From: Candidatus Endomicrobiellum mastotermitis
Lineage (GTDB): Bacteria > Elusimicrobiota > Endomicrobiia > Endomicrobiales > Endomicrobiaceae
Assembly: GCA_031272445.1 (NCBI GenBank)
Contig: JAISTT010000002.1
Span: forward strand, 1-62,036
Reading direction: 5' to 3'
DNA: 62,036 nt
Below, piece after piece: positions 2,296-61,124 of this stretch. The notes beneath the pieces are model-generated. The model searched no databases. It was not told the origin of the DNA and worked only from the letters and a program-made list of their open reading frames with translations. The stretch's first letter is position 1. Each line of letters starts with the position of its first letter. The translations under genes were made by a program, and so were the position numbers.

Positions 2296-3351
2296 ATGAA
2301 TACGAAAAAATATAAAGTAGCAGTAGTAGGTGCCACTGGAGCAGTTGGACTTGAAATGATTAAAATGCTTGAGAGTAGAAATTTCCCTATAGAAAGTATA
2401 AAACTTTTAGCATCAGAACATTCTGTAGGTAAAAAACTAATATATAAAAATAAAAAATTTACAGTTGAACTACTTACAAAAAACAGTACTAAGAATATTG
2501 ATATCGCACTATTCAGTGCAGGAGTAAAAGTTTCAAAAGAATTTGCTCCTGTTTTTGTAAATAATGGAAGTTTTGTCATAGATAATTCAAGTGCATGGAG
2601 AATGGATAAAGACATTCCATTGATTGTTCCTGAAGTAAATCCTCATAATCTTAAAAAAGAGAAAAGACTTATAGCGAACCCCAACTGCTCTACAATTCAA
2701 ATGGTATTAATTTTAAAACCTTTACATGATTTTGCAAGGGTAAAAAGAGTTATTGTTTCAACATACCAGGCTGTCTCAGGGGCAGGACAAAAAGGTATTA
2801 ATGAACTTAAAAATCAAATAAAGACTTGGGATTGGAATACAAAAAATCAAAAAAATCTAGAAATGAGTAGTACAAATAAAAATAAGTTTTATTATCCAAT
2901 AGCATTTAATTTGATACCACAAATAGACACTTTTATGGAAAATGGATATACAAAAGAAGAAATGAAAATGACAAATGAAACAAAAAAAATAATGGGAGAT
3001 AGTTCAATAGAGATTAGCGCAACATGTGTAAGAGTTCCAGTTTTTCGTTCTCATTCCGAAAGTGTATGGATTGAAACTGAAAAACCTCTTTCTTCTGAAA
3101 AAGCAAAAGAATTATTATCAAAAGCTAAAGTTAATGGCATTAAACTTTTAGATAAACCTGAAAAGCGAAAGTATCCTATGCCATTATTTGCAGAAAACAC
3201 ACAAGTAACTTATGTTGGTAGAATTCGCCAAGATATTTCAACAAAAAACAATGCTTTAACATTCTGGATTGTATCAGATAATCTATTAAAAGGAGCTGCA
3301 TTAAACGCAGTTCAGATTGCAGAAACACTTATAAAAAATAAGCTCATCTAA
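2296..3351 (+). CDS. asd: Aspartate-semialdehyde dehydrogenase
   Basis: This enzyme reduces aspartyl phosphate with NADPH to L-aspartate 4-semialdehyde, the branch point to lysine/diaminopimelate, threonine and methionine. The 351-residue protein has the nucleotide loop GATGAVG at residues 12-18 and the active-site cysteine C131 in NPNCSTIQ. The substrate and His region RVPVFRSHSE lies near residue 250. AAGAGGA precedes the ATG. It is the last gene of the plus-strand run and is followed by a terminator. Its product is also the co-substrate of the carboxynorspermidine dehydrogenase encoded next on the other strand, so the placement may be metabolic. Length and motifs are normal. Confidence 0.95.
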   Translation: MNTKKYKVAVVGATGAVGLEMIKMLESRNFPIESIKLLASEHSVGKKLIYKNKKFTVELLTKNSTKNIDIALFSAGVKVSKEFAPVFVNNGSFVIDNSSAWRMDKDIPLIVPEVNPHNLKKEKRLIANPNCSTIQMVLILKPLHDFARVKRVIVSTYQAVSGAGQKGINELKNQIKTWDWNTKNQKNLEMSSTNKNKFYYPIAFNLIPQIDTFMENGYTKEEMKMTNETKKIMGDSSIEISATCVRVPVFRSHSESVWIETEKPLSSEKAKELLSKAKVNGIKLLDKPEKRKYPMPLFAENTQVTYVGRIRQDISTKNNALTFWIVSDNLLKGAALNAVQIAETLIKNKLI

Positions 3352-25421: not shown

Positions 25422-26723
25422 TCAATATAAAAAAGAATTAAAAAAACTTTTTACCCTAAGTTTTCTATGATAACTCAAAGCAAATCTATGAGCCTCATTT
25501 CTTATGAATTGCAAAAGTTTTAGAGCCTCTGAATGTCTACTCAAAATTAGAGGTTTATCTTTATCCTGTAAAAAAATTTCCTCATTACCTTTCGCAAGTG
25601 AAATTACAGGGATTTGTAACCGAAGTTCACTCAATGCATTTAATGCATATTTAAGTTGTCCCTTCCCGCCATCAACCAAAATTAAATCTGGCATCTTTTC
25701 ATTTTTTCTTATTAATGATGAATATCTCCTGAAGATAACCTCCTTCATACTTGCAAAATCATCTATACCATGCACTGTTTTAATTTTAAATCTTCTGTAG
25801 TTTTTTTTATCAGCAATTCCATTTTGGAATCTAACCATAGAAGCTACAGCATCTATTCCATGTATATTAGAATTATCAAATCCTTCTATTATTGTAGGTT
25901 GACTCTTTAGTCCAAGAAAATTCTTTAATTCATTCATACTGTCCGCTCTTTTTATAGACTGATTCATTTCCTCTTGAGTGATTTCGCTTATCATAACTCT
26001 TTCAGACATACTCCGCAATGCATAAAGTCTATCTCTTACTTCTTTCGCTTCTTCATAACACATACTTAAACTTAAATCAAACATTTGTTTTTTCCACTCA
26101 CTTTCCAATTTTTTAAATCTACCATTTAAGAATAACTCAATCCCTTTAACTTTTTGTTTATACTCTTTTGATGTAATCTTACCAAGACAAGGACCATAAC
26201 ACATTTCTGTATGATAATAAAGACAAGATTTAACATTCTTTTCATTATGAAGAGAGTTTTCAAACAGATCTATTTTACATGGGCGAATTTTAAAAAGTCT
26301 CTTAAGCCATCGAACGAATTTCTTTATATAAAAAAGTTGTGGATAAGGACCAAAATATAAAGCTGAATCTTTAAGTTTTTTTCTCGTAAATATCAATCGT
26401 GGAAAATCTTCATTTATTGAAAATTTAATATAAGGATAAGATTTATCATCTTTCCACATAGAATTAAAATGTGGTTTAATTTTATTTATTAGTTGTCTTT
26501 CAATTATCAACGCTTCTCTTTCAGAAGCACATAAAATATAATCTATCTTTCGCATAGACGTAATAATAGTCGTAGCTTTTGAATCTATATCAGCGTTAAA
26601 ATATGACGAAATCCTGCTTTTAAGATCTTTCGCTTTGCCAATATATATAATATCACCTAAACTATCACTCATTACATAAACTCCAGGGAGTTTAGGAATT
26701 TGCATAAGCCTATCATTTTTCAT
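25422..26723 (-). CDS. uvrC: UvrABC excinuclease subunit C, short form
   Basis: UvrC makes the two incisions in nucleotide excision repair. The 433-residue protein has the GIY-YIG nuclease domain (GVYVMSD...IIYIGKAKDLKSR, residues 14-37), a cysteine cluster at about 150-180, and the UVR motif for UvrB at about 203-240. The RNase-H-like nuclease domain follows, with Asp283 (GFDNSN), Asp351 (LVDGGKGQ) and His412 (NEAHRFA). UvrC is usually about 560-610 residues. Here the linker between UVR and the second nuclease is very short, and the C-terminal double helix-hairpin-helix is absent. The frame ends right after SYHRKLR. It overlaps murJ by 4 bases. Confidence 0.85.
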   Translation of the reverse strand: MKNDRLMQIPKLPGVYVMSDSLGDIIYIGKAKDLKSRISSYFNADIDSKATTIITSMRKIDYILCASEREALIIERQLINKIKPHFNSMWKDDKSYPYIKFSINEDFPRLIFTRKKLKDSALYFGPYPQLFYIKKFVRWLKRLFKIRPCKIDLFENSLHNEKNVKSCLYYHTEMCYGPCLGKITSKEYKQKVKGIELFLNGRFKKLESEWKKQMFDLSLSMCYEEAKEVRDRLYALRSMSERVMISEITQEEMNQSIKRADSMNELKNFLGLKSQPTIIEGFDNSNIHGIDAVASMVRFQNGIADKKNYRRFKIKTVHGIDDFASMKEVIFRRYSSLIRKNEKMPDLILVDGGKGQLKYALNALSELRLQIPVISLAKGNEEIFLQDKDKPLILSRHSEALKLLQFIRNEAHRFALSYHRKLRVKSFFNSFLY

Positions 26724-28261
26724 GTTTTACCAGAAACAATGTTGAAAAGAACTGCTTTCAACTCTTCAGATTTCAAAGCATACAAAACTAAAACAAATAT
26801 AATTATACCTGAAACTATAGAAACTGGAACCGATATAAATAATTTCTTAGAAATTTTACACACATTATAAGACACAATAGCCATAATAATAGATGCCAAA
26901 AAAGTCTTCAAAAATGAAAGCAATATTCGTTGAAGGTTAAGTCCACCTATCCGCCTCTTAAGATATATGATAAGCAGTAACAAATTAAAATAAGCCGACA
27001 AAGACGTTGCAAGTGCAAGTCCACCTACACCTATTTGATACATTAACACGAAACATAACATGATATGCAAAACTACAGCCCATATCGCTGTTTTAGCTGG
27101 AGTTTTTGTATCTTGAAACGAATAAAATGCATTTGCAAAAATTTTTACCAAAGCATAGGCTGGAAGTCCAAAAGAATAATAAAATAAAGCATCATTTGTC
27201 ATAATTGATCCTAAAGAGTTAAACTTACCACGTTCAAATAAGAGTTTAACTATAGGTAATCCGATAACCATTAATCCTGTTGCTGCAGGAAACAAGGTAA
27301 AAATTGTAAATCTTATAGAATAACCAAGAGATTCTTTAAGAGTTACCATATCATTTTTAGAATAAGCGTTCGTCATTACAGGAAGTGATACCGTTGCAAT
27401 CGCAAGTCCAAAAATACCCAATGGCATTTGCATAAGTCTATTAGAATAATAAAGCGCAGTTACAGAACCTTGCCCTAAAGAAGAGGCACACCTACTATCA
27501 ACTAACGCGTTTACCTGATCCGCAGATAAACCTATAATTGATGGTATCATAAGAAATACAATTTTTCTCACGCCAGGATGCTTTAAATCGAGTTTAAATT
27601 TTAAATTCCAACCCAAACTTTTAAGCTTAGGGTACTGTACAAAAAAATGCAGTATTCCTCCTATAATAACACTTACAGCAAGCCCCTTAATTTGACTATT
27701 AGGAACAATAACAGGAGCAATAAGAAAAATATAAAAAATTTCTGAAAAACTCAATGTTGCCGGTGCAACTGCTGGCAAAAAAAATGTATGCAAAGTGTTA
27801 AGTATGGCAAGTAAAAAAGAAGCAAGACATATAAAAAAAATAAATGGAAACATGAGTCTTGCAATTTCTATAGCAAGTTGCATTTTCATAGGATTATCTG
27901 AAAATCCTCCTGCAAATACCTTTGTAAAGACAGATGCAAAAAACATACCAAAAACAGATATAACTACAAGTATCAAAAATAAAGTTGAAAACACTACATT
28001 TAAAAAATCCTGAGTTAATGTTTTTTTCTTTCCATTTAAATACTCGTTAAAAACTGGTATAAATGCAGCTGAAAACGATCCTTCTCCAAATATGCGTCTA
28101 AAAAGATTAGGAATTCTAAAGGCTGCATAAAAAGCATCAGCAAACATACCTGTTCCAAATAAATTTGCCACAAGCATATCTCTTATATAACCTAAAATTC
28201 TAGAAAGTGTGGTCCCTAAAGCCACCTTCCCAGCATATTTTGTTAATGTTTTATTTTCCAT
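26720..28261 (-). CDS. murJ: Lipid II flippase MurJ
   Basis: This polytopic membrane protein of 513 residues moves lipid II across the inner membrane for peptidoglycan assembly. It starts with the family block TTLSRILGYIRDMLVA, then NLFRRIFGEGSFSAAFIPVF and about fourteen hydrophobic helices. It overlaps miaA upstream by 11 bases and uvrC downstream by 4. Its presence, with a lytic transglycosylase nearby, shows the organism still makes a cell wall. Confidence 0.93.
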   Translation of the reverse strand: MENKTLTKYAGKVALGTTLSRILGYIRDMLVANLFGTGMFADAFYAAFRIPNLFRRIFGEGSFSAAFIPVFNEYLNGKKKTLTQDFLNVVFSTLFLILVVISVFGMFFASVFTKVFAGGFSDNPMKMQLAIEIARLMFPFIFFICLASFLLAILNTLHTFFLPAVAPATLSFSEIFYIFLIAPVIVPNSQIKGLAVSVIIGGILHFFVQYPKLKSLGWNLKFKLDLKHPGVRKIVFLMIPSIIGLSADQVNALVDSRCASSLGQGSVTALYYSNRLMQMPLGIFGLAIATVSLPVMTNAYSKNDMVTLKESLGYSIRFTIFTLFPAATGLMVIGLPIVKLLFERGKFNSLGSIMTNDALFYYSFGLPAYALVKIFANAFYSFQDTKTPAKTAIWAVVLHIMLCFVLMYQIGVGGLALATSLSAYFNLLLLIIYLKRRIGGLNLQRILLSFLKTFLASIIMAIVSYNVCKISKKLFISVPVSIVSGIIIFVLVLYALKSEELKAVLFNIVSGKT

Positions 28262-29129
28262 TTATAAATTTCACATCAGATTGTGCTTTAAACCATGTGA
28301 TTTGCCGTTTGGCATAATGCCTTGTATCTTTTGAAAACTCAGAGACTAAATTTCCCAATGAAATTTTTCTATTTAGATATTGCACAACATATCTATATCC
28401 TATACCACTTAACGCAAAGCAACTCTCATTAAATCCCATATCTAAAACTTTTTGTGTTTCCTCTATCATTCCATTTTCAATCATATACTTACATCTTTCA
28501 TTAATTCTATTGTAAAGAATCTTTTTCTCAATAAAAATACTGTAATGACTGAATTTATACCTTGGACATTTGATTTCAAAATGTTCTCGTAAAGTTTTTC
28601 CAGAGAGTATATTTACTTCAAGCGCTCTTAGTAACCTCTGCGGGTTTTCCCTATTTTTCTTAGCTGATTCTGGATCCAATTTCAATAGTCTATTATATAG
28701 CTCAATATGAGGTCTAGCTTTTAACTTATCCCTTAAACTTTTATTAGTTTTTGGCATTTTGTCAAGTCCATAAAGCAAAGACTTAATATATAGACCAGTT
28801 CCACCAACTATAACTGGAACTCTACCTTTTTTAAAAATCTCAGCAATTTTTAAATCAGCAGCTTCTACAAAATCTGCAACATTATAATTTTGATCTGGAC
28901 TTATAATATCAGTTAGGTGTTGTAAGACACCATTAATTTCACGAAACCCATTCTGTAAAAGAGTACCCTCTTTATTTAAGCCAACATCTAAATATTTATA
29001 AACCTGTCTTGAATCACATGAAATTATCTCACCATTTCTCTCTTTACAAATTTCAACAGCTTTTTTTGTTTTTCCACTTGCAGTTGGTCCAGAAATAATT
29101 ATTACTTCTACGTTATTATTCATACTCAC
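28251..29129 (-). CDS. miaA: tRNA dimethylallyltransferase MiaA
   Basis: This enzyme transfers the dimethylallyl group to A37 of tRNAs that read U-starting codons. The 292 residues include the P-loop GPTASGKTKKA, DSRQVYKYLDVG, VGGTGLYIKSLLYG, the RENPQRLLRALEV helix and GIGYRYVVQYL. Its product is the substrate of MiaB, encoded at 34.5-35.8 kb, so both steps of the ms2i6A modification are in this window. It follows mutL by 21 bases. Confidence 0.95.
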   Translation of the reverse strand: MSMNNNVEVIIISGPTASGKTKKAVEICKERNGEIISCDSRQVYKYLDVGLNKEGTLLQNGFREINGVLQHLTDIISPDQNYNVADFVEAADLKIAEIFKKGRVPVIVGGTGLYIKSLLYGLDKMPKTNKSLRDKLKARPHIELYNRLLKLDPESAKKNRENPQRLLRALEVNILSGKTLREHFEIKCPRYKFSHYSIFIEKKILYNRINERCKYMIENGMIEETQKVLDMGFNESCFALSGIGYRYVVQYLNRKISLGNLVSEFSKDTRHYAKRQITWFKAQSDVKFINGK

Positions 29130-29150: not shown

Positions 29151-30965
29151 TTATCTTCTTTTAAAGAACTTTTCTAATTCTTTTAAAGATATTTTATATA
29201 TCAAAGGTCTACCGTGAGGACATGTAAAAGGCAGCTTGCACTTAAAGAGATCATTTACTAACTTCTCAGCTTCAGCAAACGTAACACTATCTCCAGCTCT
29301 TATACTTGCACGGCATGCTGAACGCACAATCTTATCTTTAACTTGTTCTATTCCTTTGTTTGCTCTATCATTTTCAATATTTGATAATACCACCATAATC
29401 ACCTGCTCTATTGACGCATCACCAAGCAATGTCGGATACGCTGTAATTCTAAAAGAATTTCGCCCAAACTCTTCAATAATTATTCCAAGCTCATTGATAA
29501 AAGCTATATTCGCCTTAAGAAGTTCAGAAAGACTTGGAGATAAGTCAAAACTCCTAGGCATAAGTACTTGCTGGATTTCAATAGCCTGATTTTCTATCTG
29601 AGAAAGATAGAGCTCATATTTAACTCTTTCTGCAGCAGCATGTTGATCAAGAATACATAAATCCCCTTTATTTTCAATAACAATATAAGTACCAAAAATT
29701 TGCCCAACAATTCTTATAATATTATTATCAAAAAATTTCGCCTGTGAAAGATCTTCTTCCACAGCATCAACAGTATTAGTACATTTATTAAAGCCATAAA
29801 CTTGCTTTGAAACATTATAATCAGAACTAGATTCAGTAATAACAGGAGAACTGTGCATATCAAGTGCGGATTTATTTGTTAAAAAAGAACATGAAGCATA
29901 ACTCTTCTCATTGTAATATTTATCAAAATTAGACACGCTACCATTCATTGGAAGATTTATGGGTATTTTAGAATGCTCATATGAAATGAGAGCATTTTTT
30001 AACAATTTCAAAAACATATCATATATACTGTTTTCATTCATAAATTTTACTTCCCTTTTTGTTGGATGTATATTCACGTCAATTTCAGATGGATTTATAT
30101 CAACGTAAATCAATACTCCTGGATGCCTATCACGTTGAATTAATCCCTTATACGCTTGATACACACAATGCGTAAGCCACTTAGGATAATTCACAGATCT
30201 AGAATTTACAAAAAGATATTGGTACTTTCTATTAGATAATGAATAGTCTTTTCCTGTAAAATAAATATCTAATGAGATCTTAGAATGATTAAATTTTACA
30301 TTTTTAACTGCTTCTGAAAAATCTTTACTCAAAATATCTGAAATCCTTTCTACTTTGCTATTAGTTTTAGGAGTAAAAAAAACCGTTTTATTTTCAGAAA
30401 GTACTTTAAAAGTTACATCTTTATTAGCAAGAGCTATTTCTTCGAGTGAACTTATAATCTTGGAACGTTCTGTAGAATCACTTTTCAAAAATTTTTGTCT
30501 AACTGGAATATTAAAAAATAAATCTCCGACCTCTGATATTGTTCCTTCCGCTCCCGACCATGGAGTAACTTTAACCTTTTCTCCTCCACTTAACGAAAGC
30601 TCCCACCCAAAAAATTCACCCTTCTTTCTAGTTTTTATCTTAAAATTTGAAATAGCTACTATAGAAGCAAGAGCCTCTCCCCTAAATCCCAATGAACGAA
30701 TTTGTGATAAATCACAAAAATCTTTAATCTTACTTGTAGTATGCCTTAATATAGAAAGCTCTAAATTTTTCTTATCCATACCAAAACCGTTATCAGAAAC
30801 CCTTATAAGTTTTTTACCAGCTCCTATTATCTCAACAATAATAGAAGAAGCAAAAGCATCTAAAGAGTTTTCTACAAGCTCTTTAGTAACATTTAAAGGA
30901 CGTTCTATCACTTCACCTGCAGCTATTTTATTAACTGTCTCTTGAGACAAAATATTTATTGACAT
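29151..30965 (-). CDS. mutL: DNA mismatch repair protein MutL (endonuclease type)
   Basis: MutL is the GHKL-ATPase of mismatch repair. The 604-residue protein has the N-terminal ATPase motifs KELVENSLDA, DNGFGM and RHTTSKI...GFRGEAL. The C-terminal domain carries the nuclease metal site DQHAAAERVKYE, and ACRASIRAGD and CPHGRP near the end. So this MutL should nick DNA, as in species without MutH. The gene is open, but its partner mutS just upstream in the transcription order is interrupted. MutL may therefore have lost its main job recently. Confidence 0.94.
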   Translation of the reverse strand: MSINILSQETVNKIAAGEVIERPLNVTKELVENSLDAFASSIIVEIIGAGKKLIRVSDNGFGMDKKNLELSILRHTTSKIKDFCDLSQIRSLGFRGEALASIVAISNFKIKTRKKGEFFGWELSLSGGEKVKVTPWSGAEGTISEVGDLFFNIPVRQKFLKSDSTERSKIISSLEEIALANKDVTFKVLSENKTVFFTPKTNSKVERISDILSKDFSEAVKNVKFNHSKISLDIYFTGKDYSLSNRKYQYLFVNSRSVNYPKWLTHCVYQAYKGLIQRDRHPGVLIYVDINPSEIDVNIHPTKREVKFMNENSIYDMFLKLLKNALISYEHSKIPINLPMNGSVSNFDKYYNEKSYASCSFLTNKSALDMHSSPVITESSSDYNVSKQVYGFNKCTNTVDAVEEDLSQAKFFDNNIIRIVGQIFGTYIVIENKGDLCILDQHAAAERVKYELYLSQIENQAIEIQQVLMPRSFDLSPSLSELLKANIAFINELGIIIEEFGRNSFRITAYPTLLGDASIEQVIMVVLSNIENDRANKGIEQVKDKIVRSACRASIRAGDSVTFAEAEKLVNDLFKCKLPFTCPHGRPLIYKISLKELEKFFKRR

Positions 30966-31124: not shown

Positions 31125-33641
31125 TTACTCATATCGTTTTTTCCAAGCACGTAGTAAATTAAACGCTTCTATATGACTTAAAGTATTCATATCAACACTT
31201 TTTAGTTCTTCTAAAATCTGGTGTTTGTCAGTAGGAAAAACCTTAACTTGTAAATTATTATCATATATTGAATCAATAGAGTTTACTTCTAATTTTTTTA
31301 AAATATTGTAAGCTTTTTCAATAATTTGGCGTGGTATTCCTGCAATTTTTGCAACGTATATTCAGTAAGACTTATATGCACTACCTTGTACTATTTTATG
31401 TAAAAATATAACTTCATTATTCCACTCTTCAACACTAACACTATAATTTACAACTCCTTTAAGAGTCTTGGATAGGCCAGTAAGTTCAAAATAATGTGTT
31501 GCAAAGAGCACTTTTGATTTCCTTCTATCCTCTGTAAAAAATTCTATAATTGCCCAAGCAATAGCTATCCCATCATAAGTTGATGTTCCTCTTCCCACTT
31601 CGTCAAGAATAATAAGACTTTTCTCCGTATATTGATTTAAAATATTTGCTGTTTCGGTCATTTCCACCATAAAAGTTGACTCACCACCAGCAAGATTATC
31701 CCCTGCGCCTATTCTTGTAAATATTCTGTCAATGAGTCCTATTTTGGCACTATAAGCAGGAACAAAAGATCCAATCTGTGCCATTATCACAATAAGCGCT
31801 ATTTGCCTTAAATAAGTAGATTTTCCAGACATATTTGGCCCTGTAAGTATCATTACATTTAAATCATCTTCAAATAATATATCATTTGCTGCAAATTCGC
31901 CACTTTTCAATACTCTTTCTAATACAGGATGTCTGCCACCTTCAATAAAAAGATCCCTACCACACGAAATCTTGGGACACGAATAATTGTATTCTAATGC
32001 GTTTGAAGCAAACCCGCAAAAAATATCAATCTCTGAAATAATTTGCGCAGTTTTTAAAATATCAGAACTAAAAGCAGATACATCTAGTCTTAAAGTATTA
32101 AATATATTGCTTTCAAGTCTTAAGATTTTTTCTTGAGCAGATAATATTTTTTCTTCAAGGACTTTTAACTCTTCTGTTATATATCTTTCACCAGTTGCAA
32201 CTGTTTGCTTGCGAATATAATGCTTAGGGGCCAATGCAACGTTTGATTTAGTGATTTCTATATAATAGCCAAATACTGAAGTATACCCTATTTTAAGGTT
32301 ACCTATCCCTGACAAAGATCTTTCTTTAATCTCCAAATTAGATATATAAAGCTTTACATCAGCAGATATCCTTCTCAATTCATCAAGTTCATCATTAACA
32401 CCACTTCTAATTACATTCCCTTCTCTTAAAGACATTGAAGGTTCATCAAGTAAATATGATGAAATTTTATCTATCACTTTACTATTATCAGGAATATTAA
32501 AATTCAATAAATTCTCATACTTTATAATTTCAGAAATATCACTAACCGTTTTTAAAGAATATTTTAATGCCATCATGTCTCTAGGATTCGCACTACCAGA
32601 AGTGATTCTTGCAATTACCCTTTCAAGATCAGAGATAATTTCTAATTTTTCAACTATCTTTTTCCTTATACTTGAATTATCTATAAAAAATTTTACAATA
32701 CTTTGTCGAGTCTCAATTTTTGAGATATCTAAAAGCGGTCTTATAAGCCACTGTTGTATAGTTCTTGCTCCCATAGGTGTTTTCGTAGAATCTATTACAG
32801 CAAGTAGCGAGTTTGCAGTTTTTCCGTTAGATATAGAGCTAAAAAGTTCAAGATTTTTTATCGCAACAGCATCTAAATACATAAAATTCGAATTATTTAT
32901 ATATTTCACGCCTAAAAAAATATCAATACTTTGTGACTGTACTTCTTTTATATAAGCAAGCAATGCTCCACAAGCACAAAGTATTTCTCTTTTGTCAAGT
33001 CTAAACTTTTCTAGAGCATCATTACCGAAAACATCATATACCATTTTTTTAGCATTCTCAACATTGAAAAATAAACTGTTTACATCAGAAATAGGAATTT
33101 TAAACTTTGCCAAGAAATCTGAGATTAATTTACTTTGAACAATGGCAGAAGATATAATAAGTTCTCCTGGATTATACTTCAATAGCTCAGTTTCAATAGA
33201 TTTTAACGACATTTCTGAAGTAAAAAAATCACCTGTTGATATATCGGCCACAGCAAATGCAATAGGTAGTAAGGCATCATCAAAAATTAGTGACATTAAA
33301 AAATTATTTTTTTTGGATTCTAACAAGACATCCTCTAAAACTGTCCCAGGAGTTATGACTTTTGTAACTCCGCGTTTCACAATGCCTTTTACATTTCCAG
33401 GTACCTCAAGTTGTTCACAAATAGCAACCTTAAATCCCCTTGTTATAAGTTTTCTAATATAGGAGTTAGCCGAATGATAAGGAACTCCACACATTGGGAC
33501 TCCATTTCTTTGTGTAAGCACAACTTCAAGAATAGGCGCTACCTTTACTGCATCATCACTAAACATCTCATAAAAATCACCTAAACGAAAAAAAAGCACC
33601 ATATTATGATATCTAGTTTTAATATCCCAGTATTGCTGCAT
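31125..33641 (-). pseudogene. mutS: mutS interrupted by an in-frame TGA
   Basis: MutS recognises mismatches. The frame is intact for 759 codons, covering mismatch-binding GDFYEMF, Walker A TGPNMSGKSTYLRQIAL, DEVGRGTSTYDG and ATHYFEL. It then reaches a TGA at 31362-31364 in the motif normally read as SADKSYGIHVA. Here it reads SAYKSY-stop-IYVAKIAGIPRQII and continues in the same frame for 78 codons with good MutS C-terminal similarity to a TAA at 31125. The stop replaces a conserved Gly (GGA to TGA is one change), and the neighbouring Asp and His are also changed, both to Tyr. That pattern suggests loss of function rather than recoding. The likely full start is upstream, at an ATT (33674) 7 bases after GGAG, which would add IKKSFEKVTPL. 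Confidence 0.85.
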
Positions 33642-33772
33642 TAAAGGTGTTACTTTCTCAAAAGACTTTTTAATTTTTATTCTCCGAAAAGGACCATATT
33701 TTAATTTTTTCTAAACAACTCTAAATATTTTTCAGCAAAAATAAAAACTCTTGTATATAGCCTTAATAAATT

Positions 33773-34485: not shown

Positions 34486-35751
34486 CTAATCTATAACGTC
34501 CCCAAATAATGAATTTATCTTTGCTTCTTTTATAATAATATTAACAATTTTACCATAATGCTTTTTATCAATCTTTAAAAAAACTTTACGTCCACTCTTT
34601 GTTTTTGCCTCCATAAAACCATCTTTAACCTTTTCAACTAAAACTTGATGCCTCGTTCCTATCATTTTCAAAGCAATTTCAGCAGAAATTTTATTTGACT
34701 CTTCAAGTATAATAGCATGGCGTTTCTTTTTCTCTATTATAGATACATCATCACTCATTTCAAATGCCATAGTATTAGGACGCGGAGAATATTTAAAAAC
34801 ATATAATCCACCAAACTTTATAGTTTTTATTGCATTTAAAGTGTCCTCAAAATCTCTATCATTTTCTCCAGGAAAGCCCACTATAATATCAGTCGTTATA
34901 GTTATATCTGGTATAGCAAGTCTTAATTTCTCAATTAAGTCTAAATAATATTCATAAGTATACTTCCTATTCATTAACCTAAGAATCTTATTAGACGCAG
35001 ACTGCATAGGAAGATGAATATGCGAACACATTTTCCGGTTTGTAGTTATAACATTTATTAAGTCATCACTTAAATCTTTAGGATGATTTGTCAAAAACCT
35101 AATCCTTTCAAGATTTTTTATAGATGCAATACTTTTTAGTAATGAGGTGAAATCCACATTTTTATACTTATACGAATTTACATTTTGCCCCAAAAGTATT
35201 ACTTCTCTAACACCATTTTTCACAGCTGACGAGCATTTATTTATTATCGTATTGTAATCAAAACTTTTCTCAATTCCTCTTACAAATGGAACTATACAAT
35301 AAGAGCAGTAATTATTACAACCTTTCATAATAGTAATGTAGCTTATAACTTTAGATCTAAACTGAATATTGGAATTTATTTTTTTAAAAGAATTCCTAAA
35401 GCAACATAAATCAATAATCTTAGAAATACTATTATCAATATCTTTCGTACCTACAACTAAATCAATACTCTTAAAGCGCTTTTTAATATCATTACCGAGT
35501 CTTTCAGTCATACAACCCATAACAATTATCTTTACATCTGGATTTTGCTGTTTAAATTCTTCCATTCTCCCGAGATAAGAAAAAGCTTTCTGTTCAGATT
35601 GCATTCTTACAGAGCAAGTATTAAGTATTAATACATCCGCATCTAAAAAATTGTTTGCTTTAGAGGCCCCATAAGCTAAAAAAGCAGAATCAAGCTTATC
35701 AGAATCACACATATTTACTTGACAACCTAATGTTTTAATTAAGTAATTCAA
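34486..35751 (-). CDS. miaB: tRNA-2-methylthio-N6-dimethylallyladenosine synthase MiaB
   Basis: This radical-SAM methylthiotransferase adds the 2-methylthio group to i6A37 made by MiaA. The 421 residues start with the first cluster domain (LGCQVNMCDSDKL, LNTCSVR, MGCMTERLG). The radical-SAM motif CNNYCSYCIVPFVRG follows, and a C-terminal TRAM domain ends the protein. All six cluster cysteines are visible. It lies 157 bases after serA, with a hairpin between. Confidence 0.95.
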   Translation of the reverse strand: MNYLIKTLGCQVNMCDSDKLDSAFLAYGASKANNFLDADVLILNTCSVRMQSEQKAFSYLGRMEEFKQQNPDVKIIVMGCMTERLGNDIKKRFKSIDLVVGTKDIDNSISKIIDLCCFRNSFKKINSNIQFRSKVISYITIMKGCNNYCSYCIVPFVRGIEKSFDYNTIINKCSSAVKNGVREVILLGQNVNSYKYKNVDFTSLLKSIASIKNLERIRFLTNHPKDLSDDLINVITTNRKMCSHIHLPMQSASNKILRLMNRKYTYEYYLDLIEKLRLAIPDITITTDIIVGFPGENDRDFEDTLNAIKTIKFGGLYVFKYSPRPNTMAFEMSDDVSIIEKKKRHAIILEESNKISAEIALKMIGTRHQVLVEKVKDGFMEAKTKSGRKVFLKIDKKHYGKIVNIIIKEAKINSLFGDVID

Positions 35752-38575: not shown

Positions 38576-40930
38576 TTACTCAATAACTAAAGAAATCACT
38601 TCATCCATATGAGAAACAGGTATCATCTTAAGCTTTTTTACTACATCATCAGGTATATCAACTAAATCCTTTTTATTACTTTCAGGGAATATTACAGTGG
38701 TAATCCCTTCGTTATGGGCAGCAAGAACCTTTTCTTTAAGTCCACCAATACCAAGAACTCTACCTCTTAACGTAATTTCCCCCGTCATTGCAATTTTCTT
38801 TTTTACAGATTTATCCATACATACTGAAGCTAAAGCAGTCGCCAAAGCAATACCAGCACTTGGTCCATCTTTTGGCACTGCCCCCTCAGGCACATGCACA
38901 TGAAAATCAGTTTTTGAAAATATACTTTCATCTATCGATAATTTCCGAGAAGCAGAACGAACATAAGTCAAAGCAGCTTGTGCAGATTCTTTCATAACAT
39001 CACCGAGCTTCCCTGTAAGAACCAAAGAACCCTTACCCTTCATCTTATTTACTTCTATTGTAAGCACCTCTCCACCAACGTCAGTCCATGCAAGACCGGT
39101 CACCACTCCAATACCATTTTCAGCTATCTTTTCTCTCTCATAGTGGGCTATGCCCAAATAAGTATTTAAATTTCTTGTAGTAATCTCTATTAATTTTAAT
39201 TCTTTATCGAATTCTAATTCCTTTATTACTTTCCTACAAATATTTGCTATTTCTCTTGTAAGATTACGAACTCCAGCTTCATGAGTATAATTTTTAATTA
39301 TAGCACTAACCACACCATTACCAAGAACAAGTTCTTCTGGTTTCAATCCATGTTCTTTTAACTGTTTAGGAACTATAAAATCTTCTGCTATGTGATATTT
39401 TTCACTGTCAGTGTAACTAGAAAACCTTATAATCTCTAGTCTATCGAGTAGAGTATTTGGAATATTATTTAATGTATTTGCTGTGGTTATAAACATAACA
39501 TTTGATAAATCAAAATCTACATCGAGATAATGATCACTGAAAGCATAATTTTGTTCAGGATCTAAAACTTCAAGCAATGCTGATGATGGAGTACCTCGCC
39601 AATCAGAACCCATTTTATCTATTTCATCAAGGATAAAAACTGGATTGTTAGACCCTGCTTTTTTCATTGACTGGATAATTTTCCCCGGCATTGAACCTAT
39701 ATAAGTACGTCTATGTCCCCTTATTTCAGCTTCATCTCTAACCCCTCCCAAAGAAATCCTCACAAAATTCCTTCCAAGACTCCTAGCAACAGATTTCGCA
39801 ATAGAAGTTTTGCCCACACCTGGAGGACCAATAAAACACAGAATAGGTCCTTTTATTTTTTGCACTCTAGATAAAACCGCAAGATACTCTAAAATTCTTT
39901 CTTTAATTTTTTCGAGTCCATAGTGATCTTGATCTAAAATTTCTTTAGCTCTTCTTAAATCCAAATTATCAGGAGTTGACTTCTCCCAAGGTAAATCTAA
40001 AATCCAATCAAGATATGTTCTTATAACTGCAGCTTCTGGAGACATTGGCATCATTTTTTCAAGTCTTGCTATCTCTTTACTAGCAGCATCTCTTGCAACT
40101 TGCGGCATCTTGATTTTTTTTAATTTGTCCTTCAAATCGTCAATATCTTTTTGTGCATCATCTTTTTGTTTAAGTTCTTTCTGAATAGCTTTCATTTGTT
40201 CAGTAAGATAGTACTCTTTTTGTGTTTTTTCTATTTGACTTCTTACCCTACTTTGAATTCGTCTTTCAATATTTAATATCTCTATTTCTGAATCCAATAT
40301 TCGGATTATTTTCTCTAAACGCTCAATTGGATTTATCAATTCAAGAATTGCTTGCTTATCATTATTCTTTATAACAAGATGCGATGCTATCGCATCTGAA
40401 AGCTTCGAAGGTTCAGTAATATTGCTTACAGAAACAAAAATTTCCACTGACATTCTTGGATTTAACTTTATATACTGTTCAAAAAGAATAACAGACTGTC
40501 TCATAATTGCTTCGGCTTCAGGAGTTTTTTCAACTTTTTCATCAAAAATTTTAAATCCTACCTCAACATAACCCTTATCGCTTAGCTTAAAATCTGTCCA
40601 TTGAGCTCTAAACAGTCCCTCAACGAGAGCTTTTATACCATCTGCCATTTTTAATATTTGAAGTACCTCACAAACAGTCCCTATGTTATAAATATCACTA
40701 GGTGTAGGATCTTCAACTTGAATATTTTTTTGCGTAACAATAAAAACAAGTCTATTTGTTACCATAGCCTCTTCCAAAGCTTTGATAGACTTTTCTCTAC
40801 CTATACTAATAGGTAATACCATTGTAGGATATAAAACCATTTCCCTCACTGGAAGAAGAGGGAGCACTTCAGGAATTTTCGATACTTCATTTTTATCATT
40901 AGTAAACTTATCCAATCTATTATTATTCAT
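38576..40930 (-). CDS. lon: ATP-dependent protease Lon
   Basis: Lon degrades damaged and regulatory proteins in the cytosol. The 784-residue protein has the N-terminal substrate domain (LPLLPVREMVLYPTM), a coiled linker, and the AAA+ module with GPPGVGKTS, FILDEIDKMG and the RGHRRTYIGSMPG pore region. The C-terminal protease has the Ser in KDGPSAGIALATAL and the Lys in GGLKEKVLAAH. Its ATG overlaps the former stop of clpX (ATGA), a clear mark of the old tig-clpP-clpX-lon operon. With clpX broken, Lon is the one complete soluble ATP-dependent protease visible here. Confidence 0.97.
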   Translation of the reverse strand: MNNNRLDKFTNDKNEVSKIPEVLPLLPVREMVLYPTMVLPISIGREKSIKALEEAMVTNRLVFIVTQKNIQVEDPTPSDIYNIGTVCEVLQILKMADGIKALVEGLFRAQWTDFKLSDKGYVEVGFKIFDEKVEKTPEAEAIMRQSVILFEQYIKLNPRMSVEIFVSVSNITEPSKLSDAIASHLVIKNNDKQAILELINPIERLEKIIRILDSEIEILNIERRIQSRVRSQIEKTQKEYYLTEQMKAIQKELKQKDDAQKDIDDLKDKLKKIKMPQVARDAASKEIARLEKMMPMSPEAAVIRTYLDWILDLPWEKSTPDNLDLRRAKEILDQDHYGLEKIKERILEYLAVLSRVQKIKGPILCFIGPPGVGKTSIAKSVARSLGRNFVRISLGGVRDEAEIRGHRRTYIGSMPGKIIQSMKKAGSNNPVFILDEIDKMGSDWRGTPSSALLEVLDPEQNYAFSDHYLDVDFDLSNVMFITTANTLNNIPNTLLDRLEIIRFSSYTDSEKYHIAEDFIVPKQLKEHGLKPEELVLGNGVVSAIIKNYTHEAGVRNLTREIANICRKVIKELEFDKELKLIEITTRNLNTYLGIAHYEREKIAENGIGVVTGLAWTDVGGEVLTIEVNKMKGKGSLVLTGKLGDVMKESAQAALTYVRSASRKLSIDESIFSKTDFHVHVPEGAVPKDGPSAGIALATALASVCMDKSVKKKIAMTGEITLRGRVLGIGGLKEKVLAAHNEGITTVIFPESNKKDLVDIPDDVVKKLKMIPVSHMDEVISLVIE

Positions 40931-42162
40931 GTAGGCTCCCTTGTGCTTTTATACACAAACTTAGGATTCTCCTTTTTCATTACAGTTTCAGCTGTGACCA
41001 TGCTTTTTACAATTGAAATATCATCCGGAATACTAAACACCGCATTAAGTAATAAATTATCTATAATTACTCTTAAGCCTCTTGCAGCAGATCCCCTTTT
41101 AACACCTCATATGTCATTTTTTTCACTACTTCTCCTTCAAACTCAAGTTCAACATTTTCAAACTTAAAATTTTTTGATATTGTTTTATTAAAGCATTTTT
41201 AGATCTTATTAAGATTATACATTAAGTCTTACATTGATAAAAGTCCAATGTCGCAATTATAGGGAGTCCCGCTTACAAATTCTAGTATAAACCAAAACTT
41301 CACTAAATCTTCACTGTCAAACTTTAGAAGGCACATAATCTCACTCGCTATCCTTAAATCTATCTTTATTATCAATATCTTTTTTTCTTTATAAACGTTT
41401 CTCTATTAGACCTTAGAGTCCATTAAAAATACCTCCACAAATAAAAAGAATATTTGTAAGTATCTATGATTAATATATTTTTGTTGTGGATGTTTCCTAC
41501 CACCATGCGGAGAAACGCTTGCAATAGTTCTTTCAAGAATTTTCAAAAGAGCTTGTTGAACACTTTTACCGAAAACGCTTCTCATTTTAGACATACTATC
41601 AGACTTGTTTGAAATTCTATCCACTTCATCAATATAAATATATACCTTTCTCAACTCTTCTTATATCAAAATTTGCATTTCGCATAAATCTTAAGATATG
41701 TTTTCAACATCTTCTCCAACATACCCAATTTCAGTTAACGTAGTTGCATCAGAAATAGCAAATGGGAACATCAAGTATTCTCGCTAAAGTTTGTGCTAAA
41801 AGAGTTTTGCCCGTTCCAGTAGGACCTACGAGTAAAATATTAGACTTTTGAAACCCTACCCCCTACCTCATCTTCTTTTGATACAAAAAATGAAGTTTCC
41901 ACCAGTTTATAGTGATCACAGCCACAGATAAAACTTTTTTCGCATATTCTTGTTTACGGCATAATTATCAAGATTTTTTTATTTCACTGGCTTTGGTAAT
42001 TTAAAAACAGCTTCTCTTAATTTTTTTTATTCAAAATATCAAAAATCTCCAATAAACTTCTTACACATCTTTCACAAATATAAACATTATTTACTCTAAT
42101 AATTTATTAGGATACTTCTTATTACAAAAAATATAAAATTTTTTGTCAAAATCATTTTCCAT
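40927..42162 (-). pseudogene. clpX: clpX pseudogene (ClpP unfoldase), many frameshifts and stops
   Basis: The 1.24 kb between clpP and lon has the length of a normal clpX but no long frame. Pieces in order on minus are: a possible start MENDFDKKFYIFCNKKYP; the zinc-finger remnant VYICERCVRSLLEIFD; Walker A in [19 protein letters not shown] (about 41.8 kb); and after a shift [20 protein letters not shown]. Then come [19 protein letters not shown] and [16 protein letters not shown] (41406-41654). The C-terminal pieces are NALIKQYQKI, FENVELEFEGEVVKKM and GSAARGLRVIIDNLLLNAV, with a stop overlapping the lon start. Each piece matches ClpX closely, so the inactivation is recent. Several independent frameshifts exclude a single sequencing error. 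Confidence 0.93.
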
Positions 42163-48335: not shown

Positions 48336-48979
48336 CTAAAAAACTATATTAATAATGTCATCAGGAGCTTTAACCACATAGTCAGGACTATATTGTTTTA
48401 TATGCCTTAAATCTGAATAACCATATAATACCGCTAGATGATATACCGGCAGCTTTTGCAGCCAAAAAATCATTTGCACTATCACCTTATCATAACAGTT
48501 TTTGAAATATCAGAATTTGTGATTTTTATCAATTCCATAATAGGTCCAGGACCAGGTTTTTTTAAACCCATCACACTATCTCCTCCAAAAACTTTAATAA
48601 AATAATCAGAAATTTTTAGACGACTTAAAATTTCACACGAAAATAATTCACCTTTATTTGATAAAACTGCTTTGCTTTTATCTTTTAAAACTTCAAGCAT
48701 ATTAGCAACACCCTTATACATAACTGTAGTATCAGTTAAACATTTTCCATAATAAAATCTAAATAACTCCTCCACTTCTAGCCTATCTATCTTTTTCTCT
48801 TCATAAATAACCTTATCTATAAGCCTACTTATACCACCTCCCAAATAGGAACGTACTTGTCCCACTGATAAATATTTAAGTCCATACCTTCTTCTAACCA
48901 AGTTAATAGCCGAAGTTATATCTACTTGAGAATCAATAAGCGTTCCATCTAAATCAAAAATTAGAAAACTAAAACCCAT
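48336..48979 (-). pseudogene. gph: HAD-family phosphatase (phosphoglycolate-phosphatase-like), two frameshifts
   Basis: The 5' part reads well: FLIFDLDGTLIDS (nucleophile Asp), SVGQVRSYLGGG, VLSNKGELF and KKPGPGPIMELI (motif III Lys). The frame then breaks at about 48482. After a one-base shift GDSANDFLAAKAAGISS (the last Asp motif) continues, and after a second shift GYSDLRHIKQYSPDYVVK and PDDIINIVF lead to a stop at 48336. The open frame alone (48482-48979, 165 residues) lacks the GDSxND magnesium ligands and is probably inactive. Without the two indels the gene would be a normal gph of about 214 residues. Confidence 0.88.
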
Positions 48980-49109
48980 AAAATTTTAAACTCAATCAAG
49001 AATAAAAGTTTCAACCCTTTATAACAGAGATATATTATGATAAATTTTAGCCAAACATATGCAACGGTGGTACACAAATTATTTCATTATTAAAGTTAAA
49101 GTAAAAAAT

Positions 49110-57388: not shown

Positions 57389-60300
57389 TTATTGCACAAT
57401 CGCATCATTTTGTTTATCAATTTTTACAGATATTATCTTAGAAATACCATATTCTTCCATCGTAACACCATAAAGAACATCTGCTATTTCCATTGTACGT
57501 TTATTATGTGTTACAACTAAAAATTGTATACTAGTAGAAAACTCTTTAATCATAGCATTATACCTACCAACATTAGCATCATCCAACGAAGCATCTACCT
57601 CATCTAAAATACAAAAGAGAGAAGGCTTTGTCATAAAAAAAGCAAAAACCAAAGCAATAGCCGTTAAAGTCTTTTCGCCACCAGAACAAAGAGAAATATT
57701 TTGCAATTTTTTTCCTGGTGGCTGTGCAAGTATATCAATTCCACTTTCAAGCAAGCCATTTTCATCACTAAGTATTAAATCTGCTTCCCCACCCTCAAAA
57801 AGTTTCATATAGAGCTTTTTAAAATTCTCCCTTACAAGGTTGAAAGTCTTTTTAAAATTCTCAGTAGTAGATTGATTAATTTTTTTTATAATTTCACGTA
57901 AATCATTTTTAGCTATTAATAAATCCTGCTGTTGTACCAAAAGAGAATTATATTTTTTCTCAATACTCTCATACTCTTCTTGTGCCGTAAAATTTACAGA
58001 TCCTAAAGATTTAATTTTATCTCTTATCTCTTTAATTTCCTCAACATCTACTCTAATATTATTATCAAAATTACTTTTTATTTCTTCATAATTCTTCCCA
58101 TAAATATCTGTAAGTTTTTTTTTTGAATCGTCCTTCTTATATTCAAGATTTTTTAAATCAATCTTCCTAATGTTTATTTCGCTATTTACACTATCCATTT
58201 TACTTTGTAATTTGCGTAACTCATCTGCTTTTGTATTCAGTGCAGATTGAAATGCTTGTTTATCCTTCAAAAAAACTTGTATTTCAAGTTCCCTTTTAAA
58301 CTGTCCATCAAGCAACTGCTTCACTCTTTTACTTTCAGTTTGCTGAGATGCAACTGACTCTAGAATCTTCTTACTATTTTCAGAAATCTTAAATTCAAGA
58401 TTCTTTATTTGAGTTCTAAAGTTAGCAATATTATCTACAATGTATTGGCATTCTCTATTTTTATTTTCAAGTTCAGTAAGCTTTTTTTCCCAATTACTTC
58501 TTGCATCCATCATAACAGGAGCAAGAGCTTCTTCCTTCTTTCTCATTAAAAATACACTGTTTTCAATAGTTTTCAGTTCATTGTAAAATTCAAATAATTT
58601 TATTTCATAATCTGAAATCTTTGCTTCAAAAACAGATATTTTTTCATCAAAAGATCTAAACTCAAAATTTTTATTATTTATTTCCTTTTTATGCTTATCT
58701 ATTTCATCAACAATATTTCTTATCTCATTTCTTTTCTGTTCAACATGAACTTGTTTCTCATCAATCTGCGTTTTGATTTTTATCACATCAAAACCTAAGT
58801 TCTCTTTTTCAATCAAAAGACTCTCTCGATATTTATCTACATGTTGCATTTTAAATTGTATATCAGAAATATTTTGCTTTATTTCTCTTGATTCATCACT
58901 AAGTTTTTTTATTTGTTCCTCAACTAATATCGGTTTCTCGAAAAATATTTTTCCTCCACCCTGAACTAAAACATTTCCATAAAATCTACTACCTGAAATA
59001 AAAGAATTGGAACATATAAAACGAATTATTTTTTCATCGCGTAAATCGTAGCTTAAATATTTTATAAGTTCAAAATGTCTTAAAGGAAGTCCTATACTGA
59101 CATTTTTATAATAATCAGAAATTTTCTCAACGATTATAAACGAGAGTCTGCTTAAATTATTATCCTCTAAAAATCTAATAGCATACTCAGCCTTTTCTAA
59201 AGTTTCACATACAAGATAATTTAATTTTTCTCCTAAAATGGATGCAATAAGTTCACGTTTATTTTTATCAATAACAATCAGATTACTTATAGGACCTCTT
59301 GCAAAATCACCCAAACTCAATACCGCTCTTATAGATGATCTAATAGGATCTTTATACTCAAATTCTTTTAAAGCAACTGTACGAGCATCATTAGAAGCTA
59401 GAATATCTCTATACTTAGAAAAATCACTGTTAAAAATTTTCATTTCTTCATCGTTTTTCAAAATAGCTTCATTTATTTCTTCTTGTTTAACTTTAAGTAA
59501 TTGTAGTGATTTATTCCTATCGAGAAGCTCAACTTCAATCTTTGCTATTTCTTGATTCATAGAAACAATAATACTCTCAAGTCTTAACACTATCTTCTTT
59601 AAAGAAATTATATCTGCATCTAAATGTATTTTTTTTTCTGTAAATTCTTCCTTTAAATTAAGACGCTTTCTTTTTTCAGATTCAAGTTCTGAAATTTGTA
59701 ATTGAATTGATTTTTTTTTCGATTCAATTTCGAATAATCTCATTTTTACAGTATTGTATTGTTGTTCCTTTTCTCTATAAATATTTTCAAAACGATGCAC
59801 TTCAATTGAAAAAGAATCATCACTAATATTCAGTTTTTTAAGCTGCTCTTCCATATTAATAATTTTATCACAATACACTGAAAGTTCTTTTTCAAGTATT
59901 TCCTGCTCTGATTTTATTTCAACTTCACGTTGCGTCTCATGTTTAATTATTTGATTAGCAATATCTATCTGTGTTTTGATTCTACCTAAATCTTTATTTA
60001 TATTTAGATATCGTTCATTTATCTCATCTAGATTAAAACGCAGGTTTTGAATTTCCGAGTCAAATTGTTTTAATAAAACATCACCAGATTCAAATTCTTT
60101 TATCTTAGTATCTAGCTTCTTTTTAACTTCTTCTATTTCAATATTATTACAAGTAACACAATATACTAAGTATGAAATCTCACATCTCGCAAGATTTTCC
60201 TGATATTCATTATACTGCTTAGCTTTTACCACAGATAAACCTAAAGCTGCCATCTGCTGTTTATATATTTTAAGAATGTCAGATAAACGTGATATATCTG

Positions 60301-60856
60301 TATCAACTTTTTCAAGCCTTTTTAAAGTTTCTTCTCTTCTTGCCTTATATTTTGCAACTCCAGCAGCTTCCTCAAACAATTCTCTTCTACTTTCAGGCTT
60401 TGCCGTAACTAAAAAATCAATCTTGCCCTGCTCAATTATTGAATAACTATCAATCCCTAAACCACTATCTAGAAATATATCTTTTACATCTTTAAGTCTA
60501 CACTGATTTTTGTTTATAAAATATTCACTTTCACCACTTCTAAACAACTTTCTTGTTATAGTGACTTCTGAGTAATTCACAGGTAAAACATTTTGCGAAT
60601 TATCAAAAACAAGAGAAACTTCTGCCATTCCGCTTATCGTCCTTGTTTGAGTACCGCTAAATATAACTTCCTGCATATTAGAACTTCTCATTGATTTTGA
60701 TTTTTGTTCTCCAAGACACCAACGTATAGAATCAACTATATTAGATTTGCCACATCCGTTAGGACCTATAATACCTGAAATTTCAGATTTAAATTCCAAC
60801 ACTGTCCTCTCAGCAAATGACTTAAAGCCACTTATTTCTAGTTTTTTCAAATACAT
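57389..60856 (-). CDS. smc: Chromosome segregation protein SMC
   Basis: SMC is the core ATPase of bacterial condensin. The protein has the N-terminal Walker A GPNGCGKSNIVDSIRW, a long coiled coil, a hinge at about residues 500-640 (ASILGEKLNYLVCETLEKAE...), a second coiled coil, then signature LCSGGEKTLTAIAL and Walker B FCILDEVDASLDDAN. I chose the ATG at 60856, 7 bases after AAGGA, giving 1155 residues, a normal length; the frame is open six codons further. scpA and scpB are not in the window. Confidence 0.95.
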   Translation of the reverse strand: MYLKKLEISGFKSFAERTVLEFKSEISGIIGPNGCGKSNIVDSIRWCLGEQKSKSMRSSNMQEVIFSGTQTRTISGMAEVSLVFDNSQNVLPVNYSEVTITRKLFRSGESEYFINKNQCRLKDVKDIFLDSGLGIDSYSIIEQGKIDFLVTAKPESRRELFEEAAGVAKYKARREETLKRLEKVDTDISRLSDILKIYKQQMAALGLSVVKAKQYNEYQENLARCEISYLVYCVTCNNIEIEEVKKKLDTKIKEFESGDVLLKQFDSEIQNLRFNLDEINERYLNINKDLGRIKTQIDIANQIIKHETQREVEIKSEQEILEKELSVYCDKIINMEEQLKKLNISDDSFSIEVHRFENIYREKEQQYNTVKMRLFEIESKKKSIQLQISELESEKRKRLNLKEEFTEKKIHLDADIISLKKIVLRLESIIVSMNQEIAKIEVELLDRNKSLQLLKVKQEEINEAILKNDEEMKIFNSDFSKYRDILASNDARTVALKEFEYKDPIRSSIRAVLSLGDFARGPISNLIVIDKNKRELIASILGEKLNYLVCETLEKAEYAIRFLEDNNLSRLSFIIVEKISDYYKNVSIGLPLRHFELIKYLSYDLRDEKIIRFICSNSFISGSRFYGNVLVQGGGKIFFEKPILVEEQIKKLSDESREIKQNISDIQFKMQHVDKYRESLLIEKENLGFDVIKIKTQIDEKQVHVEQKRNEIRNIVDEIDKHKKEINNKNFEFRSFDEKISVFEAKISDYEIKLFEFYNELKTIENSVFLMRKKEEALAPVMMDARSNWEKKLTELENKNRECQYIVDNIANFRTQIKNLEFKISENSKKILESVASQQTESKRVKQLLDGQFKRELEIQVFLKDKQAFQSALNTKADELRKLQSKMDSVNSEINIRKIDLKNLEYKKDDSKKKLTDIYGKNYEEIKSNFDNNIRVDVEEIKEIRDKIKSLGSVNFTAQEEYESIEKKYNSLLVQQQDLLIAKNDLREIIKKINQSTTENFKKTFNLVRENFKKLYMKLFEGGEADLILSDENGLLESGIDILAQPPGKKLQNISLCSGGEKTLTAIALVFAFFMTKPSLFCILDEVDASLDDANVGRYNAMIKEFSTSIQFLVVTHNKRTMEIADVLYGVTMEEYGISKIISVKIDKQNDAIVQ

Positions 60857-61124
60857 TATTGTCCTTATCTTCAAAATAGAATAGATTTACTTTTAAGTCT
60901 ACACTTTATAAAACAAACAATCACACAAAAAAGAAAATTTCTCTCAATTTAACATGAAAATTCCTTCCTTTAATGTTTTAATATTGCCTTATTTTTAACA
61001 TATATTGTTTGGTACGCGTAGATTACAACTCTCTTACAAAAGTAAAAGGCATAATAAATAATTAATTTACAATTAAAAAGTATTATAATTACGAAGTTAA
61101 ATAAATAAAAACACACCTAAAATT
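60857..61124. other. Intergenic region before smc
   Basis: These 268 AT-rich bases lie between the end of the acetyltransferase-like gene and smc, both on minus. AAGGA near 60865 is the smc ribosome site. No gene is seen. Confidence 0.4.

Follow-up and report, generated by a model that had tools for sequence, protein, structure and literature searches.

The window, by which we mean the whole 62,036-nt stretch of DNA analysed (contig C6), contains a mutS gene that is interrupted by one in-frame TGA codon and is otherwise well preserved. We conclude, with a probability of roughly 0.7, that this is a recent single nonsense lesion which has probably inactivated mutS and which represents an early stage of losses that have been completed in relatives. 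According to this interpretation, one recent G-to-T change would have turned a glycine codon into TGA, and translation would halt near the start of the helix-turn-helix (HTH) that pairs two MutS subunits. The resulting product of 759 residues would be unable to dimerise, to bind mismatches or to drive MutL. Mismatch repair would thus be switched off in the source lineage, with the TGA presumably fixed in the population, and the source genome would stand at the beginning of a process that no fewer than three lineages in the genus have finished, having lost mutS and mutL at this locus.

The source genome assembly comprises 795 kb in 18 contigs with a completeness of 86%. MutS relatives assign it to the genus Endomicrobiellum (Elusimicrobiota), whose members are symbionts of flagellates in the termite gut, and judging from these relatives its host is probably such a flagellate. 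The closest named relative by MutS was Ca. Endomicrobiellum basalitermitum Nm470_bin135 (83% MutS identity); the named relatives are metagenome-assembled genomes (MAGs). The two nearest relatives, G001 and G026, were used as references, and the window was mostly collinear with both. For the MutS alignment, 29 other sequences were included, 23 from the genus and six from the order; genus counts out of 24 include the source genome.

The open part of mutS (31362..33641; all features of the mutS-mutL locus given here are on the minus strand) spans 759 codons and encodes the mismatch-binding, connector, core/lever and clamp domains and almost the entire ATPase domain. It scored 839 bits against the NCBIfam model TIGR01070, for which the cut-off is 641.7, and spanned nearly the full model. 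Pfam MutS_I, II, III, IV and V were all matched, MutS_V only up to model position 162 of 188. In the alignment to the E. coli MutS chain of 1e3m, what we take to be the Walker-type and FYE segments are legible. The gene thus has the same five Pfam MutS domains, the same domain order and the same adjacent mutL as E. coli MutS and bacterial mutS1 (TIGR01070/NF003810). Upstream of the first ATG, GTG or TTG, the frame is open for a further 23 codons (33642-33710) that match the start of the relatives (TPL before MQQYW), so the exact start codon is uncertain.

Codon 760 is the TGA (31362..31364), where both G001 and G026 have GGA, from which a single G-to-T change is enough to produce it. As the initial annotation had stated, the TGA replaces a glycine and the frame remains open for 78 codons behind it, ending with a TAA at 31127-31125; this remainder (31125..31361) would be untranslated, and the HTH and the C-terminal tail are still recognisable in it, as the 78 codons align with the final part of the MutS model in a profile search. 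Each of the 29 other MutS sequences has this glycine. Across these sequences 155 columns are invariant, and the source genome deviates at only one of them, the TGA. The same annotation had read two further changes in this motif, Asp and His both to Tyr, as damage. The change of Asp (GAT in G001 and G026) to Tyr (TAT) at codon 756 (31374..31376) is indeed private to the source genome, but the site is variable, with Asp in 19, Asn in three, Glu in one and Tyr in one of the 24 genus members and Ser in E. coli. The Tyr at codon 762 (31356..31358) is not a lesion at all, since it is common to six of the 23 other members and thus stands in place of His in seven of the 24, G001 and G026 among them.

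A second mutS, named by the initial annotation as a refuting condition, was searched for and not found: the 795-kb, 86% complete assembly contains one place with the MutS-type ATPase (PF00488). A phage search returned only distant MutS sequences, which were used no further.

The states of codons 756, 760 and 762 were read from the assembly consensus of one genome. The main rival of a genuine lesion is therefore a consensus error, or a minority or strain polymorphism in the metagenome assembly, in which case most cells would have an intact mutS. The fragmented and incomplete assembly, the MAG origin of the named relatives and the undiminished constraint in the rest of mutS all speak for it. Poor consensus should, on the other hand, have hit other genes too. 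When three stretches of the source genome (62, 60 and 47 kb, together 169 kb) were matched to 131 open reading frames (ORFs) of G001 and 120 of G026, mutS was the sole gene of the source genome with one internal nonsense codon and otherwise intact. Matches with less than 50% identity or less than 60% cover were left out of this comparison. On balance we regard an error or polymorphism as unlikely, though it is the alternative to be taken most seriously.

By alignment, residue 759 of the source MutS corresponds to residue 771 of E. coli MutS, placing the stop at position 772. The ATPase domain of E. coli MutS extends over residues 568-765 and the HTH over 766-800, as described in PMC3848065. 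Mapped by alignment, the latter corresponds approximately to positions 31278..31382 of the window, with the stop near the start of this dimerisation segment. In contrast to E. coli MutS, the source product therefore lacks most of the HTH as well as the tail. The HTH segment is kept in all 23 other MutS proteins of the genus, even in the seven without a tail; among the 29 other sequences, the C-terminus is whole in 22 and ends after the HTH in seven. When the HTH is disrupted, MutS reportedly no longer dimerises, binds mismatches or hydrolyses ATP (Biswas et al. 2001). Since most of the HTH and the tail are removed, the allele is likely to have lost its function and to be null for mismatch repair.

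This conclusion presupposes that TGA terminates translation. TGA is a stop codon in the source genome and is not recoded, as had been argued earlier from the TGA codons that end other genes, here 11 of 46 selected long ORFs of the window. The prfB gene for release factor 2 (RF2) is open over 343 codons. It carries a G-rich stretch followed by CTT TGA, before which the gene runs in the other frame, and we take this to be the canonical autoregulatory frameshift site. A broken RF2 was considered because of a TAG and a TAA inside the match, and was rejected when the sequence was found to contain this normal programmed frameshift. The anticodon TCA was absent among the 47 tRNA genes found in the 86% complete assembly, no tRNA-Sec above the cut-off was found in it, and the anticodon stem of tRNA-Trp(CCA) is complete with 5 bp. 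Of the TGA-ended genes with a reciprocal partner in G001, 29 of 32 end within 10 residues of the G001 end, and 14 of these 29 end in TAA or TAG in G001; the three that do not are mutS, gph with its frameshifts and one further gene. On the strength of the RF2 gene, the tRNA set, the tRNA-Trp stem and the aligned stops, recoding was rejected. The one in-frame extension past a TGA that exceeds that of mutS (362 codons) was likewise dismissed as a sign of recoding: the TGA is the normal stop of a 353-aa ORF, called leuB following the naming of the initial annotation, behind which a separate 351-aa ORF (2296-3351) lies in the same frame. The UGA recoding and readthrough systems described in PMC13092985 resemble the present case in that a TGA interrupts the frame of a conserved gene in a reduced genome. 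They differ in that the source genome keeps RF2, TGA as a stop and the normal tRNA-Trp stem, whereas a tRNA-Trp with a 4-bp anticodon stem is reported there to read UGA.

Even with TGA as a regular stop, a near-cognate tRNA-Trp could read through codon 760 at a useful level, such that some full-length MutS would be made. The 78 open and conserved codons would be accounted for in this way, and it is also suggestive that the source genome keeps its tail while G001 has lost its own by a frameshift. Moreover, the base directly after the TGA is A, and TGA followed by A is a leaky context in E. coli. The intact RF2, the 5-bp stem instead of the UGA-reading form (PMC13092985) and the behaviour of the other TGA codons as terminators all argue against readthrough. 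In addition, no Rfam family matched around codon 760, and Trp would have to stand in for a glycine that is invariant in the other MutS proteins. We therefore consider readthrough improbable.

The age of the putative lesion was estimated from private changes, counted in 111 gene triplets (37,713 codons) and polarised with G026 as the outgroup. A tree of miaB plus MutS prefers G001 with G026 (83% support), and if this is correct, the counts of the source genome include a short stem. Codons differing in all three genomes were excluded (93 in mutS, 3970 elsewhere). Before the TGA, mutS has accumulated 31 nonsynonymous (N) and 58 synonymous (S) private changes in the source genome, compared to 32 and 66 in G001; the other source-genome genes together have 1906 N and 3136 S. 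Its N/S ratio ranks 46 of 78 genes. Under neutrality, the mutation spectrum of the genome itself would give mutS an N/S of 2.8 and approximately 11 nonsense codons over the branch, while one nonsense codon was observed. The 95% upper limit on the N/S of mutS translates into at most ~15% of the branch without constraint. In terms of a pseudogene, the frame is interrupted relative to the relatives (TGA versus GGA), while relaxed constraint is not seen, the lesion being too young to show it. As constraint before the TGA equals that in G001, the lesion must be very young, as had been suggested initially, or else selection is still acting on mutS.

The neighbouring mutL (29151..30965) bears on a further scenario, namely that another change, or a regulatory one, abolished mismatch repair well ahead of the TGA, which would then have struck a gene already dead. 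The gene is intact, as claimed by the initial annotation; it is open over 604 aa and retains DQHAAAERV and CPHGRP, presumably motifs of an endonuclease-type C-terminus. At 45/34, its private N/S is high and takes rank 4 among 78 genes, versus 27/42 in G001 (p = 0.034, uncorrected), a feature that mutS does not share. This value and the private Asp-to-Tyr change at codon 756 would fit an earlier loss. The changes of mutL at invariant columns (8 of 197) are, however, similar in number to those of G001 and G026 (9 of 206 each), and in mutS the unremarkable N/S rank, the retention of every invariant column but one and the single nonsense codon instead of the neutral expectation all speak against it. 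Such an early loss appears very improbable.

A long-standing loss of mutS should have left a trace in the genome, given the size of mutator effects in Vibrio, where, according to PMC5854121, base substitutions increased by a factor of 85 to 317 and indels by a factor of 102 to 142 upon deletion of mutS. No mutator consequence is supported by our data, and the following points weigh against a lesion that has abolished repair. Over the 169 kb compared, the source genome had broken copies of mutS, of gph and of a clpX-like gene, plus a few cases that are shared or lie at edges; this is no excess, as G001 and G026 had at least as many. Transitions were not in excess: the ratio of transitions to transversions at fourfold sites was 955/351 versus 868/255 in G001, opposite to the expectation. 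In 49 intergenic regions, indels of 1-2 bases in runs of at least four were not significantly more frequent (11 versus 6 in G001, p = 0.47 given the branch lengths), so the homopolymer indel spectrum proposed as a check did not bear out the idea, and neither did all indels taken together (153 versus 111, p = 0.18). Furthermore, the sequence past the TGA is still conserved, which is compatible with readthrough. A very young lesion would account for the missing mutator signature, which nevertheless yields no functional confirmation.

The proposed link between the loss of mismatch repair and the frameshifts in clpX, gph and btuF is not supported either; of these genes, btuF was not located. The clpX-like AAA gene (40930-42162, minus strand) is an old wreck with frame changes and many stops in several frames, while G001 and G026 have an intact ORF, the G001 copy with the domains AAA_2 and ClpB_D2-small. 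Owing to its poor match, it fell outside the integrity comparison and was visible only in a separate one. So heavily decayed a gene is not the result of so recent a mutS lesion. The phosphoglycolate phosphatase-like gph (48339-49006, minus strand) has two frame changes and is open in both references.

In other lineages of the genus, mutS and mutL have been deleted or have decayed. With fragments and wrecks included, 51 of the 59 genomes searched contained MutS and 48 contained MutL; the locus was read in some of the negatives. In G017 (L097, G017:C32), mutS is cut to approximately its first 118 codons plus a frameshift, and in G011 (L098, G011:C11) it is a stop-riddled remnant; in both, mutL is gone and both flanks are kept. 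In G010 (L200, G010:C3), the 9 kb that come after miaB contain neither mutS nor mutL nor the miaA-like gene. In G031 (L201, G031:C19), the contig ends 1.2 kb past the expected mutS start and contains at most a doubtful remnant of 16 codons (E 0.8). Only the upstream flank is visible in these two genomes. Neither gene was found elsewhere in the assemblies of G010 and G031. G012 was uninformative, as its mutS is missing where contigs break, and G003, G006, G014, G020 and G021 (34-66% complete) were left out of the locus reading. The tree of miaB and MutS, from which rpoB was dropped as a marker because it was present in just 17 of 30 genomes and in which several deep nodes are weak, placed G011 beside G025 (99), G017 beside G008 and G027 (98), and G010 with G031 (97). 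Judged by these separate positions, mutS and mutL have been lost or wrecked at least three separate times within the genus.

A tie between fast evolution and loss of the locus was also looked for, from which we draw no conclusion. In 15 genes, G011 had more changes than G025 at fourfold sites (160 versus 96) and more N changes (258 versus 65), with no rise in the transition to transversion ratio (117/43 versus 75/21). Long branches were not seen for G010, G031 and G017 in the tree.

In addition, the MutS tail behind the HTH has been lost in seven of the 24 genus members (L003, L015, L016, L017, L021, L023 and L024). In terms of rounded assembly sizes, 7 of the 11 members with up to 0.9 Mb lack the tail, as do 0 of the 13 with at least 1.0 Mb (p = 0.001, uncorrected for phylogeny or completeness). 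Tail loss looks convergent in small genomes. In G001, the tail persists as out-of-frame debris.

Taken together, these states may be arranged as steps, and here we go no further than a tentative proposal. Endomicrobiellum might dismantle mismatch repair repeatedly and stepwise, the source genome being the earliest recorded step. The series that might be visible across the relatives would be an intact gene, a lost tail, one nonsense codon in a pristine gene, a decayed locus and a deleted locus, an ordering for which we would claim somewhat less than even odds.

Reduced genomes have commonly lost mutS, and such a loss is usually caught long after the event. The kind of lesion is therefore known, while the stage is unusual. 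For the insect endosymbionts Blochmannia, related lineages are reported to have lost mutS in parallel as their genomes were reduced (PMC4389277); the present case differs in that the host is probably a termite-gut flagellate and in that one genome has a single lesion. Genome erosion is documented in the Endomicrobiellum MAG set of Mies et al. 2024 (PMC11257099), the same genus according to the MutS relatives, where the words 'mismatch' and 'mutL' do not occur in the main text. Literature searches on mutS in Endomicrobium turned up no paper on its loss in the library covered. The losses described here qualify a published statement that repair gene functions show no notable differences within the family. 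A constrained gene with a single lesion, an intact mutL and relatives that keep or have lost both genes would offer a before-and-after comparison of what losing mismatch repair does to a host-restricted genome. If the stepwise reading is true, shifts in mutation rate, indels and recombination could be measured just after the loss of repair, in a symbiont lineage for which DNA-uptake genes are reported to be kept elsewhere in its genus. Genes for DNA uptake and recombination are kept and expressed in some Endomicrobium symbionts, as reported in PMC8809381, and a regain of mutS by recombination is conceivable.

The locus is flanked by two synteny anchors. On the upstream side lies miaB (34486..35751; TIGR01574, 425 bits), and on the downstream side a miaA-like gene (28251..29129), the name of which is our presumption.

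Some further genes attracted attention. One gene, L088 at about 319-1371 (G000:C5:60319-61371), had an extreme private N/S of 140/23, far above the rest, possibly owing to an orthologue mismatch or a shifted segment. The smc gene (57389-60874, minus strand, 1161 aa) is intact in the source genome and decayed in both G001 and G026. UvrC (25422-26723, minus strand, 433 aa) matches its model with approximately 90 positions skipped in the middle, and the ORF in G001 is of about the same length.
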